Positions 37,351 through 46,689 of a DNA stretch of 64,000 nucleotides are shown in pieces. The notes under the pieces were generated by a model, which saw only the letters and a list, made by a program, of their open reading frames with translations, was not told where the DNA came from and did not search any database. Both the position numbers and the translations under genes were made by a program. Source of the stretch: Clostridiales bacterium (GTDB lineage: Bacteria; Bacillota; Clostridia; Lachnospirales; Lachnospiraceae); contig JAQXIM010000038.1 of the NCBI GenBank assembly GCA_029007785.1, positions 1 to 64,000 on the forward strand, given 5' to 3'. Within the stretch, counting starts at the first letter, position 1; each line of letters begins with the position of its first letter.

Positions 37351-38127
37351 ATGATTTTAGTATTAGATATTGGAAACACAAATATCGTTGTTGGTGTTAT
37401 GGATCAAAACAAGCCCCTGTTTGTAGAAAGACTTTCAACAGACAGCAATAAAACAGATCTTGAATATGCTGTAATGATAAAAACCGTTCTGGAATTATAT
37501 CAGCTCAATGGTGTCGATTTTGAGGGAAGCATAATTTCGTCAGTTGTTCCTCCTGTAACGGCCACAGTTAACCGGGCGATTACCAAACTTCTCGGAAAAC
37601 CGGCCCTGGTGGTTGGACCTGGTGTGAAAACAGGATTAAACATTCGCATAGAAAACCCGGCTCAGCTTGGAAGTGATCTGGTTGTTGATGCGGTTGCTGC
37701 GATTGCAGAGTATACGGCTCCTCTTTTAATCATTGATATGGGAACGGCTACTACCATCTCCGCCATTGACAAAAATTTAAATTACGTTGGCGGAGTAATT
37801 ATACCTGGTGCCCGGGTGGCTTTGGACTCTTTGAGCAGCAAAGCATCTCAGCTTCCCAGAGTCAGCTTTGAGGCACCGAAAAAAGCCATTGGGACAAATA
37901 CCATTGAGTGTATGAAAAGCGGTACCATTTTCGGCAATGCATCTCTGCTTGATGGAATGATTGAGCGAATGGAGGAAGAACTGGGTGGACCTGCCACCGT
38001 TGTTGCCACCGGCGGACTTGCCAGATTTATCATTCCCCATTGTCGTCATCATATTATTTACGATGACACCCTTTTATTAAAGGGATTGGGTAATATCTAT
38101 TATAAGAACATGGAAAAGAAAAAATAG
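37351..38127 (+). CDS. coaX: type III pantothenate kinase
   Basis: Phosphorylates pantothenate, the first committed step to CoA. The 258-residue protein has the ASKHA P-loop-like DIGNTNIVVGV, the substrate region QLGSDLVVDAVAA, IIDMGTATTISAID and GGLARFI. GGGAGAA precedes the ATG. It is convergent with the small gene at 38203. Confidence 0.97.
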   Translation: MILVLDIGNTNIVVGVMDQNKPLFVERLSTDSNKTDLEYAVMIKTVLELYQLNGVDFEGSIISSVVPPVTATVNRAITKLLGKPALVVGPGVKTGLNIRIENPAQLGSDLVVDAVAAIAEYTAPLLIIDMGTATTISAIDKNLNYVGGVIIPGARVALDSLSSKASQLPRVSFEAPKKAIGTNTIECMKSGTIFGNASLLDGMIERMEEELGGPATVVATGGLARFIIPHCRHHIIYDDTLLLKGLGNIYYKNMEKKK

Positions 38128-38491: not shown

Positions 38492-39355
38492 CTATCTTCC
38501 GTTTACGATATCGTCGATGGTCTTGAACATCTGATCAACGGGAGCTTCATCTACACCGCACCACAGTTCGATCTGACGAGCACCCTGGTAAATAACCATG
38601 CCCAGACCGTTAATGATCTTGCAGCCCTTAGCTTCAGCATCCAGCAGGAACTGAGTCTTCAGAGGGTTGTAAGTAGCATCGAAGCAGATGTGATTGGGTT
38701 TGATGCACTCAGCTGCGATGGGAGTCTCACCTTCGTGTCCTCTCATACCAAGACCGGAGAGATTCATCAGAACGTCGGATTCAGCAACAGCAGCCTTAAC
38801 AGCTTCTTCATCACTGGTACGAATAGCGAAAGCAACTTCACGACCAAATTTCTCATTCAGATCTTTAGCCAGTACTTCGCATTTCTCAGATCTGGAGCTG
38901 ATGTACATCTTCTTAGCACCCAGGTCAGCCATGGTGAAGCATACAGACTTACCAGTTCCGCCAGCACCCCATACAAAGAAGGTGGTCTCTTCGAACTTAA
39001 CACCTTCCAGCAGCAGGGACTTGGTTGCGCCGTAACCATCGGTGTTGTAACCCTTGCAGGTTCCGTCAGCGTTACGAACTACAGTGTTGATGGTTCCCAT
39101 CTTCTCAGCCAGGGGATCCATCTCGTCCATGAACTGAACTGCGAATTCCTTGTTGGGTTTGGTTACTGCAAAACCAGCATAGCTGGGATCTTTTTTGATG
39201 TTGGCAATGTTGTTGCCGATCAGTTCATTACCAGTCTCCAGAGGGAAGTAATGTCCATCGAAGTTGATAGCTTTGTAAGCTTCATTCTGCATACGAGGAG
39301 AGAAAGACTGTCCCAGAGGAGTTCCTAACAGTGCGATTAACTTTGTATCTGCCAT
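38492..39355 (-). CDS. shikimate dehydrogenase-family oxidoreductase (catabolic-type)
   Basis: A 287-residue NAD(P)-dependent oxidoreductase. The shikimate-site residues of AroE are present: Ser17 and Ser19 in GQSFSP, Lys69 in AVTKPNK (usual NVTxPxK), Asn90 in GTINT, Asp106 in YNTDG, Gln in MVIYQGARQ. The Rossmann fold has VWGAGGTGKS, and SSRSEK lies where AroE binds NADP phosphate. So a hydroxycyclohexane- or hydroxycyclohexene-carboxylate substrate is plausible. Its place last in a ThDP/aldehyde dehydrogenase/lyase operon argues against a role in aromatic amino acid synthesis. Quinate or shikimate dehydrogenase, or a relative acting on another polyol acid, are the options. Confidence 0.88.
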   Translation of the reverse strand: MADTKLIALLGTPLGQSFSPRMQNEAYKAINFDGHYFPLETGNELIGNNIANIKKDPSYAGFAVTKPNKEFAVQFMDEMDPLAEKMGTINTVVRNADGTCKGYNTDGYGATKSLLLEGVKFEETTFFVWGAGGTGKSVCFTMADLGAKKMYISSRSEKCEVLAKDLNEKFGREVAFAIRTSDEEAVKAAVAESDVLMNLSGLGMRGHEGETPIAAECIKPNHICFDATYNPLKTQFLLDAEAKGCKIINGLGMVIYQGARQIELWCGVDEAPVDQMFKTIDDIVNGR

Positions 39356-39395
39356 AATTGCGCCTCTTTCTACACTAAAATGTGTGATTTATTTT

Positions 39396-39416
39396 ATAAC
39401 AGCATTAAACTGTTAT
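39396..39416. repeat. small hairpin between the lyase and shikimate dehydrogenase-like genes
   Basis: Perfect 7-bp inverted repeat ATAACAG/CTGTTAT with a 7-nt loop in the 136-bp junction upstream of the dehydrogenase gene. AT-rich and weak alone; listed because two other junctions in this operon also carry hairpins. Confidence 0.5.
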
Positions 39417-39465
39417 ATCTGTGTAAAAATATAAAATCATAGAGATTTACTCTTGTGATATTTGA

Positions 39466-40428
39466 TTATTTGGTCTGATTCTTAATCTGTCCCTTGGGCA
39501 GCTCCAGTTTCAGATCTTTGGATTTTCCTGCACGCAGAATGTAGCTGTCTGCAGAATGTCCAATCATTTCGATAACTTTCTTGCTGATTGCAATAGCCTT
39601 ATCGATATCAATACCAGTATTAACGCCCATTTCATCACAAACATGCAGTACGTCCTCAGTGGAAACGTTTCCTGCTGCTCCGGGAACGAAAGGACAGCCG
39701 CCAACACCTGCAAAGGATGCATCAAACTGGGTAAATCCAGCCTGCATACCTGCAATGATATTAGAAATACCAAGACCTCTGGTATTGTGGAAATGCAGCC
39801 ACCATTTGTTATCAGGATAAGATTTCTGCATTTCTTTACACATGCTGTAAACCTGAGAAGGGAAAGCCATACCGGAAGCATCGGACAGAGAGATCTCAGT
39901 GATACCTACAGCCATGTATGCTTCAACAATTTTCTTAACTTCATCAACCGGAATCTCATCATCCCAGGGAGATCCAAATGCCATGGAAATAGATCCGGAA
40001 ATATCCAGACCATTGGATTTGGCAGCATCTACAGCCTCTCTGAAACCAGCAACACTTTCTGCAGGTGTTCTGTTCAGGTTAGCCAGATTGTGTCCCATAC
40101 TTGCGGATACGTTCAGTTTAACTTTCTTACATCCACAAGCAACAGCACGATCTACACCACGCTTGTTGGGAATCAATGCACGAAGCTCAACATCATCGGG
40201 AACGTCAACTTCAGCCATAGCTTTGAAAACGTCGTCAGTGTTTGCCATCTGCGGTACTTTTACAGGGTGCATGAAAGAACCAACTTCAATTACTTTGAAA
40301 CCAGCATCAATCATACCTTTCAGCAGTTCTACCTTCTGATCAACAGTAAGAATGGTTTTTTCATTCTGCAGACCGTCACGAAGACCTACTTCACAAATTC
40401 TAATATCTTTTACAAGATCGAATGCCAT
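39466..40428 (-). CDS. HMG-CoA lyase-family enzyme
   Basis: A 320-residue DRE-TIM metallolyase. It has EVGLRDGLQNE (catalytic Arg17, metal Asp18), SLSDASGMA, the metal-binding HFHNTRG, and the mobile loop GVGGCPFVPGAAGN with the catalytic Cys (about residue 244) found in HMG-CoA lyases but not in isopropylmalate synthases. It would cleave a 3-hydroxy(-3-methyl)acyl-CoA to acetyl-CoA and an oxo acid. HFHNTRG differs from HCHDTYG of the classical enzyme, so the substrate may differ. ATG 40428 has GGAG 6 nt upstream (the GGAG is itself part of an upstream TTG codon frame). No leucine degradation genes are nearby; the neighbours point to a dedicated carbon pathway. Confidence 0.88.
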   Translation of the reverse strand: MAFDLVKDIRICEVGLRDGLQNEKTILTVDQKVELLKGMIDAGFKVIEVGSFMHPVKVPQMANTDDVFKAMAEVDVPDDVELRALIPNKRGVDRAVACGCKKVKLNVSASMGHNLANLNRTPAESVAGFREAVDAAKSNGLDISGSISMAFGSPWDDEIPVDEVKKIVEAYMAVGITEISLSDASGMAFPSQVYSMCKEMQKSYPDNKWWLHFHNTRGLGISNIIAGMQAGFTQFDASFAGVGGCPFVPGAAGNVSTEDVLHVCDEMGVNTGIDIDKAIAISKKVIEMIGHSADSYILRAGKSKDLKLELPKGQIKNQTK

Positions 40429-40465
40429 AATTGTCTCCAATCTACTATTTTACTACTTAAGAAAA

Positions 40466-40499
40466 GCATGCCGAATGCTCGAATGAACATTCGGCATGC
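40466..40499 (-). terminator. strong hairpin between the ThDP enzyme and lyase genes
   Basis: Perfect 12-bp stem GCATGCCGAATG/CATTCGGCATGC with a 10-nt loop, followed on the minus strand by TTTTCTT. It looks like a partial terminator or mRNA-stabilising structure inside the operon. Confidence 0.7.
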
Positions 40500-40542
40500 C
40501 GCCTGTTTTTTATATGAAAGTTTCTAGAATAAAGCCGAAGAA

Positions 40543-42441
40543 TTAGTCAGCCTGAGAACGGATAACTTCTACAACTTTTCCGTCCATTTCATCAGCAAAT
40601 TTCAGACGTCCATTGCAAACATCAACGTTCTCTTTATGAGTATAAATATCGTTGATGTTCCAGATACCAGGGGTAGGAACCGGCAGGTTCTCCATGGGAA
40701 CGTCAATCAGGAAAGGAACATTGCTGTCAACTGCTTCCTGCAGATATTTAGCATAATCATCAGCGCAGGTAACAGTTCTGGCTTCGATACCATAACCACG
40801 AGCGATTGCAGCCCAGTCAGGAGAATAAGATTCCCATCTCTGCTGGAAAGTACCTTCTCCTCCCATGGTATCGCCCATCTCGGTAGGTCTGATCTTGAAC
40901 TCAGTACCCAGATGAAGTGCGCAGTTCTCTCTCTCGTTCTTATAGTGAAGTCCTTCCAGACCAGCGATGGTACCGAAAGCACTGTTGTTCATAACAACCC
41001 AGATTACAGGGATACCCTGCTCTTTAGCGGTTGCCATAACACAAGGGTTAGCAGCACCAAATCCACCGTCACCGGTAAGAGTGATAACAACCTTATCCGG
41101 AGCAGCCAGCTTAGCACCCAGAATAGCGCCAGCACCGAATCCCATGGTAGCCAATCCCGAAGGATGATTGATGGTACCAGGAATTTCGATATCATACTGC
41201 TGAGCAACACCATTCTTGTTCCAGCCTACATCGGTGAAGATCAGGGAATCGGGCGGCAGAATAGCCTTGGTATCTCTCAGGATTCTCTGAGGAGCCATAG
41301 GGAATCTTCCATCGTCGCAGATTGCCTTGTTTTCTTTCTTGAAGTTTGCTTTGAAATCAGCAATTTCTTTTCTCAGTTCAGGTCTGTCAATACCTTCAGG
41401 TTTGATCTCCTTAGCAGCAGCAAGAATCTGAACCAGAGCACGCTTGATATCAGCAATTGCACCAATCTCAACAGGATAGTTTCTTCCAATTTCAGTAGGA
41501 TCGATATCGATCTGCATGAATTTGGTCTTGCTCTGATCAAAGGTTACACCTTTGTACCAGGAAGAGCTGTTAGCTTCAGCCATTCTGGATCCAAGGATCA
41601 GAATATAGTCAGCAGCAAGAGTCTTCTGGTGAGTCAGCTCAAAGCCCCAGAAACCAGTCTGTCCAAGCAGCAGCGGATGAGTATCCGGAATGCAGCCCTG
41701 ACCCATCAGAGAACGGGAAACGGGGATATCCAGGAAGTCAACCAGGTCAGCCAGCTCTTTGGAAGCCTGAGACAGCAGAACACCACCACCGGCATGGATT
41801 ACAGGATTCTTAGCGTTGATCAGCTTTTCAGCAATCAGCTTAGCAGTATCGGGATCCAGAGCGGGTCTGATGGTTTCGTGAGAATCCATAAAGGTTCTCT
41901 CCCAGCACTCAGTCTCAATCTCACGGGAGAACATATCCATAGGAACAGAAATCAGGACAGGACCAGGTCTGCCGGATTCTGCCAGACGGAAAGCTTTGTC
42001 CAGTACTTCCGGGAAAGCTTCAGGACGATCAATTCTCCAAGCTCTCTTAACGAAAGGTTTGTAGATATCGTACTGAGATCCGTCACAGTGCATATTAACT
42101 TCCTGATGAGGATGTTTTCCATAGTAATAACTGGGAACGTCACCAGCGATTACAACCATGGGAATAGAGTCAAATGCTGCGTTTGCAACACCGGTGGTAG
42201 CATTAGTGAGACCCGGTCCAAGGTGGCAGATAACTACACCAGCCTTATGGGCAACACGTGCATAACCGTCAGCAGCAGTTGCAGCAATCTGCTCATGACG
42301 AACGCTGATATATCTCAGCTTAGTAGATCTGCTGAAAGCATCCAGCATAGCAATTACGGTATGTCCGCACAGACCGAAAACATATTCAACGCCTCTGCGC
42401 TCTAAATAGTCAACGATCTGATCAGAAACTAATTTTTTCAT
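40543..42441 (-). CDS. thiamine-diphosphate-dependent enzyme, possible cyclic-dione hydrolase
   Basis: A 632-residue member of the acetolactate synthase/decarboxylase superfamily. The N-terminal PYR domain has the catalytic Glu50 in RHEQIAATAADGYAR; the C-terminal PP domain has the ThDP/Mg motif GDGGFGAANP...MNN (about 453-482). It is about 50-70 residues longer than acetolactate synthases. The extra length follows NNSAFGTIAGLEGLHY and ends at SPDWAAIARGYGI. The segment FGTIAGLE and the C-terminal PTPGIW recall the inositol ring hydrolase IolD as I remember it, so a C-C hydrolase is possible, but decarboxylase or carboligase activity is not excluded. AGGAG lies 5 nt before the ATG. Confidence 0.85.
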   Translation of the reverse strand: MKKLVSDQIVDYLERRGVEYVFGLCGHTVIAMLDAFSRSTKLRYISVRHEQIAATAADGYARVAHKAGVVICHLGPGLTNATTGVANAAFDSIPMVVIAGDVPSYYYGKHPHQEVNMHCDGSQYDIYKPFVKRAWRIDRPEAFPEVLDKAFRLAESGRPGPVLISVPMDMFSREIETECWERTFMDSHETIRPALDPDTAKLIAEKLINAKNPVIHAGGGVLLSQASKELADLVDFLDIPVSRSLMGQGCIPDTHPLLLGQTGFWGFELTHQKTLAADYILILGSRMAEANSSSWYKGVTFDQSKTKFMQIDIDPTEIGRNYPVEIGAIADIKRALVQILAAAKEIKPEGIDRPELRKEIADFKANFKKENKAICDDGRFPMAPQRILRDTKAILPPDSLIFTDVGWNKNGVAQQYDIEIPGTINHPSGLATMGFGAGAILGAKLAAPDKVVITLTGDGGFGAANPCVMATAKEQGIPVIWVVMNNSAFGTIAGLEGLHYKNERENCALHLGTEFKIRPTEMGDTMGGEGTFQQRWESYSPDWAAIARGYGIEARTVTCADDYAKYLQEAVDSNVPFLIDVPMENLPVPTPGIWNINDIYTHKENVDVCNGRLKFADEMDGKVVEVIRSQAD

Positions 42442-42470
42442 GTTGTCTCCTTTGTGAGTGTATTATAGGT

Positions 42471-42492
42471 GGCTGCCTGTATCCAGGCAGCC
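42471..42492. repeat. GC-rich hairpin between the aldehyde dehydrogenase and ThDP enzyme genes
   Basis: Perfect 9-bp stem GGCTGCCTG/CAGGCAGCC with a 4-nt loop in the 75-bp junction. No T-run follows on the minus strand, so it is more likely an mRNA processing or stability element than a terminator. Confidence 0.7.
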
Positions 42493-42516
42493 GCTTAGTT
42501 GCAATTATAAAGGAAA

Positions 42517-44103
42517 TTATTTGATTGCGTCGTTGGAGTTGTAAGCAGAGTACTGTACTGCTTCCAGTTCAGGATTGTAGAACTCACCGAACAGTACATC
42601 ATCAGTCTGCCAATCGGGAGTTTCGTACTCTCTGGAAACCCAAGTAACGTTCATGTAGTGGTGCAGATGAACGTTTTCGGAAGTAGCATTTCCGCCCCAA
42701 GTACCGCAGCCGATAGAAGAAGTCATAGGCATACCATTGTTCATAGAACCGGAGTTTGCCTTGGACTGAGGCTGACGAACCATGATACGGCCAACACGAG
42801 CAACCATAGCCAGTCTGTGAATATGATCATCATCGAAGGAGAAGATACCTACAGAGTGACCCTTACCGCCTACTTCATGAATAGCCATGATAGCATCGAT
42901 AGCATTCTGGAATTCACCAGTATATTTGTGTACAGCCAGTACAGTGGAAAGTTTCTCACGGCACCAAATTCCTTCCAGACCTTTGGTGTAGATACCAGTT
43001 CCATGAGAAGCAATCAGGAATCTCTTATCAGCAGGAATTTCGAATCCAGCTTTCTCAGCCATATCCTGTGCAGACAGAGCAACAGTGTCAGACAGTCTGT
43101 GGATTTCTTCATCCCACATAGCGTTCTTCATCTTTTCCTGTTCTTCTTCGCTCATCATGTATCCGCCAACTTCTTCCAGAGCAGCAATAGCATCATCCCA
43201 AATGCTCTCGTGGATAATTACATTACCGTCTGCAGAGCAACCGGAACCGAAATCGGAGGTCTTGGAACGCATGGTATTGTCAGCTGCATGATGCAGATCC
43301 TGAGCAGCAGTCTCGTCCCAGATCATGGTAGCATTACCAGCACCTACGCCGTAAGCGGGAGTACCGGAGCTGTAAGAACGACGTACAACACCCTGTCCGC
43401 CAGTAGCAATAACCAGATCACATTTGGTCATCAGAGCTTCAGAGATAGCTTTGTTGATCTTAACAGTGCTGGGTTTGCTCATGAAGTACTCCAGATCGGT
43501 CGGAACGGGGCCAGCAGCTTCTTCTTTGGTGAAGGTGATGTTAGCACCGCCAAGGCACTGAATAAGATCCTGAGGTGCACCAACACGAGCCAGACCAAAA
43601 CGCATCAGGTTGATGGTAGCTGCGGAAGTTCTAGCTGTTCTGGGGTGCGGGGAAAAGATGATAGCGTTTCTAGCTTTCAGAGCATAGATAGCGTTACCAG
43701 CGGGGGTCAGATCAGGGTTGGTAGCAGGAATTACGCAAGCAATAACGCCAACAGGCTTAGCATACAGTTCAATCTTTCTTTCCGGATATTCACCGATCTT
43801 ACCAACGGATTTCTCACGCAGGCAGTCACGCAGGATACCACGGATTTTGAATCTCTTGTTCTCACGGCTGATCGGATCACCGAAACGAGACTCTTTAATA
43901 CCGAACATAACCAGTTCATGGAAAGTCTGAGAGTTAGCAACCATCTGTGCGATGGATTTGATAGCTCTGTCGATTTCTTCCTGGCTATAGGTCTCAAATT
44001 CCAGCTGAGCTTTATCAGCTCTGTCAAAACAATCAACTACATCTGCAAACTGTTCAGGGGACAGCTTAGCCTGATGTTCGCTCATGTCGCTCATTCTACT
44101 CAT
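42517..44103 (-). CDS. CoA-acylating aldehyde dehydrogenase
   Basis: A 528-residue NAD-dependent dehydrogenase of the acylating group (AdhE N-domain, EutE, SauS types). KPVGVIACVIPATNP binds the cofactor, the catalytic Cys is in SDFGSGCSADGN (about residue 288), and SSIGCGTWGGNATSEN near the C-terminus is typical of the sulfoacetaldehyde/succinate-semialdehyde branch. There is no fused alcohol dehydrogenase and no microcompartment targeting peptide that I can see. It would turn the aldehyde made by a preceding step into an acyl-CoA. AGGAGG lies 10 nt before the ATG. A strong promoter sits just upstream. Confidence 0.9.
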   Translation of the reverse strand: MSRMSDMSEHQAKLSPEQFADVVDCFDRADKAQLEFETYSQEEIDRAIKSIAQMVANSQTFHELVMFGIKESRFGDPISRENKRFKIRGILRDCLREKSVGKIGEYPERKIELYAKPVGVIACVIPATNPDLTPAGNAIYALKARNAIIFSPHPRTARTSAATINLMRFGLARVGAPQDLIQCLGGANITFTKEEAAGPVPTDLEYFMSKPSTVKINKAISEALMTKCDLVIATGGQGVVRRSYSSGTPAYGVGAGNATMIWDETAAQDLHHAADNTMRSKTSDFGSGCSADGNVIIHESIWDDAIAALEEVGGYMMSEEEQEKMKNAMWDEEIHRLSDTVALSAQDMAEKAGFEIPADKRFLIASHGTGIYTKGLEGIWCREKLSTVLAVHKYTGEFQNAIDAIMAIHEVGGKGHSVGIFSFDDDHIHRLAMVARVGRIMVRQPQSKANSGSMNNGMPMTSSIGCGTWGGNATSENVHLHHYMNVTWVSREYETPDWQTDDVLFGEFYNPELEAVQYSAYNSNDAIK

Positions 44104-44169
44104 TGTAATAATTCCTCCTTAATATAGGTGTTTTGGTATCAGTTATTTGCTTTTGTTACTATATACTGA

Positions 44170-44198
44170 ATTATACAACCCATCCCGTCTATAGTCAA
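44170..44198 (-). promoter_or_regulatory. strong sigma-A promoter of the aldehyde dehydrogenase-led operon
   Basis: Minus strand TTGACT (44193-44198), 17 nt, TATAAT (44170-44175), giving a leader of about 60 nt. The four genes from 44103 to 38492 can therefore be transcribed apart from the TIM-barrel gene. Confidence 0.88.
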
Positions 44199-44216
44199 TA
44201 GCAAACGCAAATGCCA

Positions 44217-44258
44217 AAGATACATTATAAATATATTAACATCTTATATATGTATCTT
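44217..44258. promoter_or_regulatory. inverted repeat upstream of the aldehyde dehydrogenase promoter
   Basis: AAGATACAT at 44217-44225 and ATGTATCTT at 44250-44258 form a perfect 9-bp inverted repeat with an AT-rich 24-bp interior. It ends 18 bp upstream of the -35 box, a position suited to an activator or upstream operator. Confidence 0.5.
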
Positions 44259-44323
44259 ACCATGTAAAAAGCAGCCTTTTTATACAGTAATTGTATTTGA
44301 ACAGGATGCTTTCGTTTTACGAA

Positions 44324-45166
44324 TTAGTCCTCCAGACCGTGTGCTCTGAAGTATGCTCTAGCTTTATCGATACAAGCCTGAGCGTGACCTTTACGTCCGC
44401 GAGCTTCGATCTCTTTCAGGTTGGGCAGTTCGATGGACAGAGGAATATTAGGCATATTTGCGATCATGGAAGCGATATCAATATCACCATCACCAACATA
44501 GTAACGAGCTTCACGAGCAGTGTACAGCATCAGATCATCTTTGATGTTGTCAAGAACTACATCTCCATCGGGGCCGGCAGGGCCATCGCACAGATGCATG
44601 AATCTGAAGTATTTGGAATCGGTACGGCCCAGTTCCTGACCGGTTACACCAGCACGGCCTGCATGGAGGGTATCAACCATGATGAATACATTCTCTTTAG
44701 CCAGGTTATCCATCAGGGAGATAGCTTCCTGAAGGTTACGAACACCAGCCCAAGGCAGGAACTCGATATTGTAGTTCAGACCAAATTCTTTAGCGTCTTC
44801 TGCAATCTTTGCAGCAGTTTCCAGATAATAATTCTTGTCACGAGTCCAGATAGAACCAAGAACATCGGTAGCACCCAGCTTAGCAGCAGCTTCAAAAGCA
44901 GGTTTATACTCAGCAATGTCCAGGTCAGGACGAACACGAGCCAGTTCGATGTCCATCAGGGGCATATCATACTCAGCCAGAGCAGCTTTGGTAGCTTCAA
45001 ACAGAGCGGGATCCTTGTCCAGCAGAAACTCAGGTTCGCCAGGCAGATGCATAGGAATAGTACGCAAAGAAACGTAATCATAACCACACTCTTTTGCAAT
45101 CTTAATCTGCTCCATGGGATCTACACCCGGAATAGTCAGGTATGCAAGGGAATACTGTCTTTTCAT
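44324..45166 (-). CDS. IolE-like TIM-barrel sugar isomerase/dehydratase
   Basis: A 280-residue member of the xylose isomerase-like TIM-barrel family (AP endonuclease 2 fold). Putative metal ligands are Glu in NIEFLPWAG (about 135), Asp and His in MVDTLHAG (about 163-166), His in FMHLCDGPAG (about 190) and Glu in LSIELPN (about 245). The family covers 2-keto-myo-inositol dehydratase IolE, hydroxypyruvate and tagatose epimerases, and 3-dehydroshikimate dehydratases, so an isomerase, epimerase or dehydratase step is likely. AAGGAGG precedes the ATG. It is first in the cluster and has its own promoter. Confidence 0.87.
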   Translation of the reverse strand: MKRQYSLAYLTIPGVDPMEQIKIAKECGYDYVSLRTIPMHLPGEPEFLLDKDPALFEATKAALAEYDMPLMDIELARVRPDLDIAEYKPAFEAAAKLGATDVLGSIWTRDKNYYLETAAKIAEDAKEFGLNYNIEFLPWAGVRNLQEAISLMDNLAKENVFIMVDTLHAGRAGVTGQELGRTDSKYFRFMHLCDGPAGPDGDVVLDNIKDDLMLYTAREARYYVGDGDIDIASMIANMPNIPLSIELPNLKEIEARGRKGHAQACIDKARAYFRAHGLED

Positions 45167-45376: not shown

Positions 45377-46609
45377 TTATATTTTTTTAATCATTTTCGC
45401 TACATCTTTTTTAAACTGAGTCCAGGCTTCCTCATTTTCCACAAAGTACTTCGGGCATATCTTTCCTGTTACATCATAGTGACGGATCAAATCCTTTGCC
45501 TTAAGATTATACTCTTTGCATAACCATGCACTGAACTTTACCAGTGAATCATAAGTTTCCTGGGTAAACTCCCCAGTCTCGTCTTCATGACAGCATTCAA
45601 TAGATATGGTATCCAGATTTCTGTTGTTGGAAGCATATGCAACTTCGCCAGCAGGAACACAGGCAATCACTTCCCCGTCCAATCCTATGATGAAATTGCT
45701 GCTGGCTTTCGTTTCACCGCTGTTTGCCAGTCCTTCAAAATAATCACGATTTTGCTTCGCCGTTGATCCAGGATTTGCTGTGTAGTGAATGACAATACTG
45801 TTGATCTCTTTCACTTCCACTCCCGGTCTTGAATAAGGATTTACCGTAAGATACTCTTCCTGAACATATTCCGGGTAATCATGATTATTTTCTGTTTTTT
45901 GTAATTTCAGAAGATAACGAATACCGGAAAACACAATTACGATCAGAAGGATGCATATAGCAGCAGCCGCAAAGCGGGTTATCCATGCCATCGCCTGCTG
46001 TTTTTTGCTTTTTTTACGTCGGCGTTTTTTACCTGCTTCCATTCTCCGTCTCTTTCGTTCAATGGAGTCATCGGTTTCAGCCTGCACTTCTTTGTTTTTT
46101 GATGTTTCCTCTTTCCACTTTTTAAATGGAGCACTTATTTTATATTTCCATTCTGCCAAAACAGATACAATGGAATCCCAGAAACCGGCTGCACCGCCTT
46201 CCTCCAGTATGGAACGAAAAAGATCTGCATTTTCTCTGTCATCTTCGATTTTCTTTTTATTCCGAAACTGTTTTCCTGCATCCATGTTTCCCTGCGGCTT
46301 TTTACTGTTTCTTCGATCAGTAAAAACTTCTTCTGCCGGTTCCTTTATTTCTGTTCTTTTTTTTGTTCGGTCATCTCCAAAAATCAGTTCTCTGTCATCA
46401 TTCTCCCGGTAATAACGGTCGGATATTTCTGTTGTTCCTGTTTTATCTTCGAAAGAGGTATGATGGAATTCTTTTTTCACAGAAGATAACGATTCATGAG
46501 TCTTTCCAGGATTCTTCCAATCAAATATATATAGTTCGTTATCTTTTTGTTTTATTTCCCAAGACTCCTGTGAACTGGGATCTATATTTTCGGAATGATT
46601 ATCAGACAT
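45377..46609 (-). CDS. membrane-anchored N-acetylmuramoyl-L-alanine amidase (amidase_2)
   Basis: A 410-residue protein with an unusual layout. About 205 charged, low-complexity residues (rich in Lys, Glu, Arg, Asp) come first, then one membrane helix (about 207-228) and an extracellular amidase_2 domain. Zinc ligands appear as His in NSIVIHYTANPG, His in IRHYDVTGK and Cys in KICPKYF; the Glu in SIECCHED is likely catalytic. It would cut the bond between MurNAc and L-Ala in peptidoglycan. ATG 46609 has GGAGG 5 nt upstream. The long cytoplasmic tail could link it to a cytosolic partner. Confidence 0.88.
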   Translation of the reverse strand: MSDNHSENIDPSSQESWEIKQKDNELYIFDWKNPGKTHESLSSVKKEFHHTSFEDKTGTTEISDRYYRENDDRELIFGDDRTKKRTEIKEPAEEVFTDRRNSKKPQGNMDAGKQFRNKKKIEDDRENADLFRSILEEGGAAGFWDSIVSVLAEWKYKISAPFKKWKEETSKNKEVQAETDDSIERKRRRMEAGKKRRRKKSKKQQAMAWITRFAAAAICILLIVIVFSGIRYLLKLQKTENNHDYPEYVQEEYLTVNPYSRPGVEVKEINSIVIHYTANPGSTAKQNRDYFEGLANSGETKASSNFIIGLDGEVIACVPAGEVAYASNNRNLDTISIECCHEDETGEFTQETYDSLVKFSAWLCKEYNLKAKDLIRHYDVTGKICPKYFVENEEAWTQFKKDVAKMIKKI

Positions 46610-46689
46610 TTTCTCCTCCCAATAAATCAATGAGGGGACAAAGCTGTCCCCCCTATTCTATTGTATTCTTTATAAAATGAGCGTTTTTT

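Follow-up and report, generated by a model that had tools for sequence, protein, structure and literature searches.

A five-gene block in a Clostridiales genome as a candidate pathway for the non-aromatising breakdown of quinate and shikimate

What is broken down by the products of five neighbouring genes at positions 38492–45166 of a 64,000-nucleotide stretch of DNA (hereafter the window) from a gut-type anaerobe of the Clostridiales? An earlier note on this DNA had described a minus-strand cluster of five enzyme families and inferred that it cleaves the ring of a quinate- or shikimate-like acid. An ORF check at these coordinates found five intact reading frames, all on the minus strand and free of internal stops, and Pfam bears out the five families (Table 1). 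The genes on either side, encoding a type III pantothenate kinase and an amidase, are unrelated in function as judged by Pfam. As the note had stated, the cluster in the window has neither a transporter nor a regulator gene, though relatives have both adjoining; an IolC kinase and an IolJ aldolase are likewise absent from the five genes and their immediate window neighbours. The description of the genes as tightly grouped holds for the intergenic gaps of 75–220 bp, but implies no single transcript, because the ThDP and HMGL genes are separated by a strong terminator-like hairpin. This hairpin (folding z = −4.67; 0 shuffles fold as well) is a possible transcript boundary or attenuator. A sigma-70 promoter scan returned sites no more common than in shuffles.

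Table 1 Features of the five-gene block and its flanks
Feature	Length	Position	Strand	Family or character
Type III pantothenate kinase (flank)		37351..38127	+	Pfam
Shikimate/quinate-dehydrogenase-family oxidoreductase (SDH)	287 aa	38492..39355	-	PF08501 (Shikimate_dh_N) + PF18317 (SDH_C)
HMG-CoA-lyase-family enzyme (HMGL)	324 aa	39466..40440	-	Pfam HMGL-like; NCBIfam NF004283
Terminator-like hairpin between ThDP and HMGL genes		40465..40500	-	16-bp stem + T run
ThDP enzyme	632 aa	40543..42441	-	Pfam TPP_enzyme_N/M/C
Acylating (CoA-forming) aldehyde dehydrogenase (ALDH)	528 aa	42517..44103	-	PF00171 (Aldedh)
Xylose-isomerase-like TIM barrel (TIM)	280 aa	44324..45166	-	PF01261 (AP_endonuc_2)
Amidase (flank)		45377..46630	-	Pfam

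Across 80 loci from several phyla that carry relatives of the ThDP gene, all five genes occur together in 34, in 13 different orders and nearly always on one strand, and the five-gene block ranges from Clostridia to Proteobacteria. Its cultured carriers include Acidaminobacter hydrogenoformans, Dethiosulfatibacter aminovorans, Anaerosphaera aminiphila and Acetoanaerobium pronyense. A phylogenetic profile of 291 genomes of the window's class agrees: the ThDP gene is present in 7 and the TIM gene in 6, all of them within those 7 (Fisher test, p about 9e-12), and a high-scoring HMGL gene is present in 6, 5 of which belong to the ThDP-bearing 7 (p about 7e-9). The three genes share contigs in these genomes, mostly within a few kb, and the distribution of the ThDP and TIM genes is sporadic. 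Co-occurrence in other genomes, on which the earlier note had staked its pathway idea, is therefore what we found, and the five genes form a real functional block. Several loci, some of them from Synergistetes, hold only the ThDP and ALDH genes within the locus DNA compared, and one MAG (L041) encodes an HMGL–SDH fusion ORF. In the variants L062, L065 and partly L064, a non-acylating ALDH, a CoA-transferase III and a citryl-CoA-lyase-like enzyme replace the acylating ALDH and HMGL, while in L052 HMGL adjoins a CoA-transferase. The variant last-step enzymes point to a citryl-CoA-like intermediate, suggesting that the same end chemistry is reached via other enzymes, through a 3-carboxy-3-hydroxyacyl-CoA. 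In GC-rich relatives, we set aside several large antisense ORFs (component c8) as ORF-calling artefacts.

The block is linked to dehydroquinate metabolism and carboxylate transport. A gene for AroD (3-dehydroquinate dehydratase), AroQ or a QuiC-like protein is present in 30 of the 80 loci, a raw count within the 10-kb flank, inside which many of these neighbours sit at a distance rather than adjacent. TRAP or TctABC transporter genes adjoin the block in many of the 80 loci, and IclR/LysR regulator genes adjoin it in relatives. The window block itself has no adjacent aroD or transporter gene; the same genome has two aroD genes, one as the last gene after TctC-TctB-TctA and the other with TRAP genes as neighbours. 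The AroD/AroQ/QuiC neighbours and tripartite carboxylate transporters independently support the earlier guess of quinate or shikimate as substrate, and the two aroD–transporter loci lend it further weight.

The catalytic residues of the five families are intact. The SDH protein contains the substrate domain PF08501 (71 bits) and belongs to the shikimate/quinate dehydrogenase family by its catalytic Lys and Asp (K69 and D106), which are invariant in 30 homologues together with N90, T65 and Q257. With 185.8 bits against the aroE equivalog model (cut-off 200.2), it is not classed as biosynthetic AroE. In this MAG, neither a biosynthetic aroE nor an aroB was found, and the cluster SDH is the sole PF08501 gene found, so it could serve biosynthesis there too. 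Several relatives have a separate, higher-scoring SDH gene outside the cluster, which makes it likely that the SDH of the cluster is an additional copy with a specialised role.

For the TIM protein (AlphaFold model, pLDDT 92.6), fold comparison ranked lmo2234 (2g0w) best, with IolI and QuiC1 also above the IolE structures (Z 23.5–23.8); QuiC1 (5hmq) and AsbF (3dx5) are both among its structural neighbours. The earlier note was largely right, but its label ‘IolE-like’ is loose, since the barrel is structurally nearer QuiC1, IolI and lmo2234. No NCBIfam model matches the protein at E ≤ 0.001, which places it outside the IolE-type dehydratases, and the QuiC model NF042435 does not match it either. 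Residues E135, D165 and E246 are invariant in 44 homologues and H191 in 42; E135, D165, H168, R221 and E246 coincide with QuiC active-site positions (PMC7442255). Judged by these residues, the protein should work like QuiC while being a non-member of the QuiC family. We found no confirmation in the open literature that lmo2234 is a Listeria dehydroshikimate dehydratase.

In the ThDP protein, E50, H27, H73 and Q113 are invariant (n = 32 homologues), while acetolactate synthase (AHAS) lacks both His. It scores 371.7 bits against the acetolactate synthase model TIGR00118 (cut-off 538.35) and thus falls outside the AHAS equivalog; no IolD model is among the best 25 of its 53 NCBIfam matches. Cyclohexane-1,2-dione hydrolase matches at E 1.3e-52, ranked under AHAS and glyoxylate carboligase. 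We rejected it as the closest family, as AHAS and BbmA rank higher in two profile searches. Owing to this greater nearness to acetolactate synthase and BbmA, the role of ring-opening hydrolase of a vicinal dione is proposed from genomic context. The best NCBIfam models for the ALDH are acylating enzymes (SauS, AdhE and EutE types). Its score of 379.9 bits against SauS, the closest curated acylating model, lies below the cut-off of 600, and the family Cys, C289, is invariant (n = 22 homologues), which indicates an acylating ALDH of another kind. HMGL is a member of the DRE-TIM HMG-CoA lyase family, scoring 301.1 bits against the subfamily model NF004283 (cut-off 246), and matches HMG-CoA lyases in the PDB at 1e-69 to 1e-50; its catalytic set R21, D22, H216, H218, C249, N258 and E262 is invariant in 35 homologues.

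We propose that the block encodes a non-aromatising catabolic pathway that takes quinate and, through AroD, shikimate to acetyl-CoA and 2-oxoglutarate, a reading to which we give a probability of about two in three. We infer every substrate and product along this route. The SDH-family enzyme would convert quinate to 3-dehydroquinate; shikimate would enter by oxidation to 3-dehydroshikimate and hydration to 3-dehydroquinate by AroD encoded elsewhere in the genome. The TIM barrel, as a putative metal-dependent 3-dehydroquinate 4,5-dehydratase, would strip the C5 hydroxyl to give the C7H8O5 vicinal dione 1-hydroxy-3,4-dioxocyclohexane-1-carboxylate, a 4,5-elimination like that of QuiC/AsbF on dehydroshikimate. 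Hydrolysis of the C3–C4 bond by the ThDP enzyme would yield homocitrate semialdehyde, which the ALDH, as a candidate homocitrate-semialdehyde dehydrogenase, would turn into homocitryl-CoA and NADH. HMGL would act as a homocitryl-CoA lyase, releasing acetyl-CoA and 2-oxoglutarate. The formulae of this step order balance for quinate.

The same logic might instead serve a different alicyclic acid (a quinate isomer, a carbocyclic sugar acid, or a methylated or deoxy analogue), with AroD-linked neighbours present for other reasons. GFO/IDH/MocA or Zn-ADH dehydrogenases accompany or replace SDH in several loci, and 11 of 30 SDH homologues have A or T at the position of S19, so the carboxylate pocket varies. 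However, the recurrence of AroD/AroQ/QuiC neighbours in unrelated phyla and the conserved SDH catalytic set both favour quinate or shikimate itself, making another acid unlikely, if the most serious alternative. We consider it improbable that the cluster leads to protocatechuate through a TIM protein acting as 3-dehydroshikimate dehydratase, its ThDP enzyme, ALDH and HMGL belonging to an unrelated acyl-CoA route. Such a role for the TIM protein would fit its likeness to QuiC1 and AsbF and the metal ligands and R221 that it has in common with QuiC. Against it, alphaproteobacterial loci (L054–L060, L068 and L075) combine a QuiC-like gene with the TIM gene within one cluster, so the roles of the two should differ; moreover, the presence of the TIM gene follows that of the ThDP gene from genome to genome, and the block is devoid of aromatic-ring enzymes. 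Least probable of all, and very much so, is sulfonate, leucine or branched-chain breakdown by a SauS-like ALDH, an HMG-CoA lyase and an AHAS-like ThDP enzyme. The first two are the best single-family annotations, but the ALDH scores well short of the SauS cut-off and the ThDP protein misses the AHAS cut-offs. Neighbouring genes that could be identified are of shikimate type or encode tripartite carboxylate transporters and, in a few loci, CoA-transferase or citryl-CoA-lyase-like enzymes, with no sulfonate or leucine gene among those annotated.

Quinate, mostly as chlorogenic acid esters, is among the commonest plant acids of food, feed and leaf litter. Decades ago, Brune and Schink reportedly described bacteria that ferment quinate and shikimate without passing through any aromatic compound; we know of no genes assigned to such fermenters. 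Propionivibrio limicola is one known quinate fermenter. Somewhat less firmly than the pathway itself, we favour the block as the genetic basis of this non-aromatising anaerobic breakdown, via ThDP ring opening and homocitryl-CoA, distributed by horizontal transfer among anaerobes of the gut and of sediments and among some Proteobacteria. A five-gene marker would make the genes of non-aromatising quinate fermentation testable and the trait scorable in gut, rumen, termite and sediment genomes, and the block would supply three enzymes with proposed new activities. In line with the earlier note, which knew of no described pathway with this gene set, our search of the open-access literature found no published genes or description of the five-enzyme route. 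The term ‘homocitryl-CoA’ occurs in no open-access paper searched.

Among known systems, the myo-inositol (iol) pathway shares cyclitol dehydrogenation, TIM-barrel dehydration to a vicinal dione, ThDP ring hydrolysis, a CoA-forming aldehyde dehydrogenase and C–C cleavage to acetyl-CoA. By contrast, the block has an SDH-family first dehydrogenase, no kinase or phosphate intermediate, no IolB or IolJ, the CoA step before cleavage, and TIM and ThDP proteins from other subfamilies. The analogy is functional only, and the block is not an iol pathway. Cyclohexane-1,2-dione hydrolase of Azoarcus, for which we know of no quinate link, resembles the proposed ThDP role in cleaving a C–C bond of an alicyclic vicinal dione, but is only distantly related by sequence; its physiological reaction has been described (PMC12247030). 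The aerobic quinate/shikimate pathway (QuiA/QuiB/QuiC; QsuABCD; Listeria qui genes) also oxidises quinate or shikimate, passes through 3-dehydroquinate and uses QuiC, to which the TIM protein is related. It forms the aromatic protocatechuate, whose further degradation is cytoplasmic (PMC4213383), whereas the proposed route would open the ring while it is still alicyclic, without oxygen. HMG-CoA lyase and citryl-CoA lyase likewise split a 3-hydroxyacyl-CoA into acetyl-CoA and an oxo acid by retro-Claisen cleavage, with conserved catalytic residues; the proposed substrate of HMGL differs in being homocitryl-CoA, which would give 2-oxoglutarate.

The window holds a block of five minus-strand genes that apparently combines known enzyme families into an undescribed ring-cleaving pathway. 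All five grouped reading frames claimed by the earlier note are present as described and intact, with intergenic gaps of 75–220 bp. Pfam and NCBIfam bear out the families of the acylating aldehyde dehydrogenase (ALDH), the ThDP enzyme, the HMG-CoA-lyase-family enzyme (HMGL) and the shikimate-dehydrogenase-family oxidoreductase (SDH); the xylose-isomerase-like TIM barrel was assigned by Pfam only, and its gene carries a strong ribosome-binding site (aaggaggag). Genes for a type III pantothenate kinase and an amidase border the block, to which they are unrelated. Owing to an internal terminator-like hairpin, the block may be transcribed as more than one unit.

Features of the five-gene block in the window
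Feature	Position	Strand	Transcription order	Remark
TIM barrel	44324-45166	-	first	intact ORF
ALDH	42517-44103	-	second	intact ORF
ThDP enzyme	40543-42441	-	third	intact ORF
HMGL	39466-40440	-	fourth	intact ORF
SDH	38492-39355	-	fifth	intact ORF
Terminator-like hairpin	40465-40500	-		between ThDP and HMGL genes; 16-bp stem plus T run; folding z -4.67

Using the ThDP protein as query against 84,980 species genomes, we obtained 80 loci spanning Lachnospiraceae and other Clostridia, Tissierellia, Synergistetes, Fusobacteria, Spirochaetes, Bacilli, Alpha- and Betaproteobacteria and Actinobacteria. The co-occurrence on which the earlier note had made its pathway depend is found: relatives of all five genes lie within ≤10 kb in 34 of the 80 loci, in 13 different orders, and four of the five in another 16. 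Partners share the strand of the ThDP gene almost throughout (ALDH 62/63, TIM barrel 54/57, HMGL 52/55, SDH 38/42). Genes that flank the block in the window, among them the uppP relative and those on the amidase side, recur in only a few Lachnospiraceae loci, so the conservation is specific to the five genes.

A second, independent sample of 291 genomes of the class contained the ThDP gene in seven genomes and the TIM gene in six, all among those seven. HMGL exceeded 500 bits in six, five of them ThDP carriers, with the next match at 331 bits. The three genes share contigs, mostly a few kb apart (Fisher p with ThDP: TIM 9e-12, HMGL 7e-9; optimistic, as the genomes are related). The block is absent from all nine further genomes in this sample that belong to the window's family, a pattern suggestive of gain and loss or of horizontal transfer. 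At two loci (L001, L002), four proteins are 84–96% identical to those of the window and the TIM barrel just 40%, whereas the TIM barrels of L003 and L004 are 75–79% identical; judging by these identities, the block seems to have exchanged its TIM gene for a distant relative. In Cuneatibacter sp. NSJ-177 (L005), a second copy of the ThDP gene (84%) lacks the other four as partners; a LysR gene adjoins it, and an MFS transporter is encoded close by.

Putative catalytic residues are conserved in the ThDP enzyme (E50, H27, H73 and Q113 invariant in 32 homologues; acetolactate synthases lack both histidines in alignments), ALDH (C289, 22 homologues) and HMGL (R21, D22, H216, H218, C249, N258 and E262, 35 homologues). 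For the route we infer all substrates and products; its computed formulae balance for quinate. Quinate would lose 2H to give 3-dehydroquinate, which would lose water through its C5-OH, an elimination likened to the QuiC reaction on dehydroshikimate, giving 1-hydroxy-3,4-dioxocyclohexane-1-carboxylate. The ThDP enzyme would add water and cleave C3–C4 to HOOC-CH2-CH2-C(OH)(COOH)-CH2-CHO, CoA-acylating oxidation would yield homocitryl-CoA, and the lyase would release acetyl-CoA and 2-oxoglutarate. A 3-hydroxyacyl-CoA cleavable by an HMG-CoA-lyase relative arises only if the ring opens in this direction.

Variant clusters agree with the route. Loci from Alteribacillus (L062) and Caulobacterales (L064, L065) combine the ThDP gene with a CoA-transferase III, a citryl-CoA-lyase-like protein and, where the contig reaches, a non-acylating ALDH, and in Metabacillus (L052) 3 bp separate an HMGL gene from a CoA-transferase gene. 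From their gene content, such clusters would form the same kind of CoA ester and split it via other enzymes. In an Oscillospiraceae MAG, a single 614-aa frame (L041, 11821-13662) spans both an HMGL and an SDH domain, an apparent gene fusion.

In the SDH, K69, D106, N90, T65 and Q257 are invariant across 30 homologues, S17 is S or T and S19 is S, A or T. Several relatives have a second, higher-scoring SDH gene elsewhere in the genome, and the cluster SDH is therefore probably a dedicated catabolic copy. In the window's own MAG (97% complete), aroC is present, the cluster SDH is the sole PF08501 gene found, and aroB and a second aroE were not found; an assembly gap or dual use of the SDH is therefore possible, and the missing genes would reflect an assembly gap or aromatic auxotrophy.

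Neighbouring genes in relatives bear on the substrate. At least one of AroD, AroQ and QuiC occurs in 30 of the 80 loci (type I 3-dehydroquinate dehydratase in 13, type II in 9, QuiC-like dehydroshikimate dehydratase in 11). Other neighbours among the 80 loci are TRAP (~32 loci) and TctABC (9 loci) transporters and IclR or LysR regulators. Neither of the two aroD genes of the window's genome adjoins the block; one is the last gene of a TctC-TctB-TctA run next to a two-component system (L085, G000:C68) and the other precedes TRAP genes (L086, G000:C144), and both likely mark shikimate/quinate uptake loci. A closely related ring acid is a possible substrate instead of quinate or shikimate. Six loci (L018, L020, L023, L028, L048, L076) hold within the block a GFO/IDH/MocA oxidoreductase gene of the inositol-dehydrogenase type, whose product may be an additional dehydrogenase acting on a different ring acid.

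The TIM barrel keeps E135, D165 and E246 in all 44 homologues and H191 in 42, the metal-ligand set expected of this fold, and in alignment its R221 and H168 correspond to R210 and H168 in the active site of QsuB/QuiC (PMC7442255). The closest folds to its AlphaFold model (pLDDT 92.6) are lmo2234 (Z 29.4), IolI (28.8) and QuiC1 (27.0), then IolE (23.8) and AsbF (23.4), a likeness between a predicted model and known folds that does not show function. That the TIM barrel forms protocatechuate is unlikely, because in alphaproteobacterial loci the TIM gene is accompanied by a QuiC-like one. A role in sulfonate or leucine breakdown agrees with neither the curated family cut-offs nor the neighbouring genes identified.

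We found neither a description of such a non-aromatising quinate/shikimate pathway nor the term 'homocitryl-CoA' in the open-access literature. Among known systems, the block works like inositol catabolism, yet is not a member of it.
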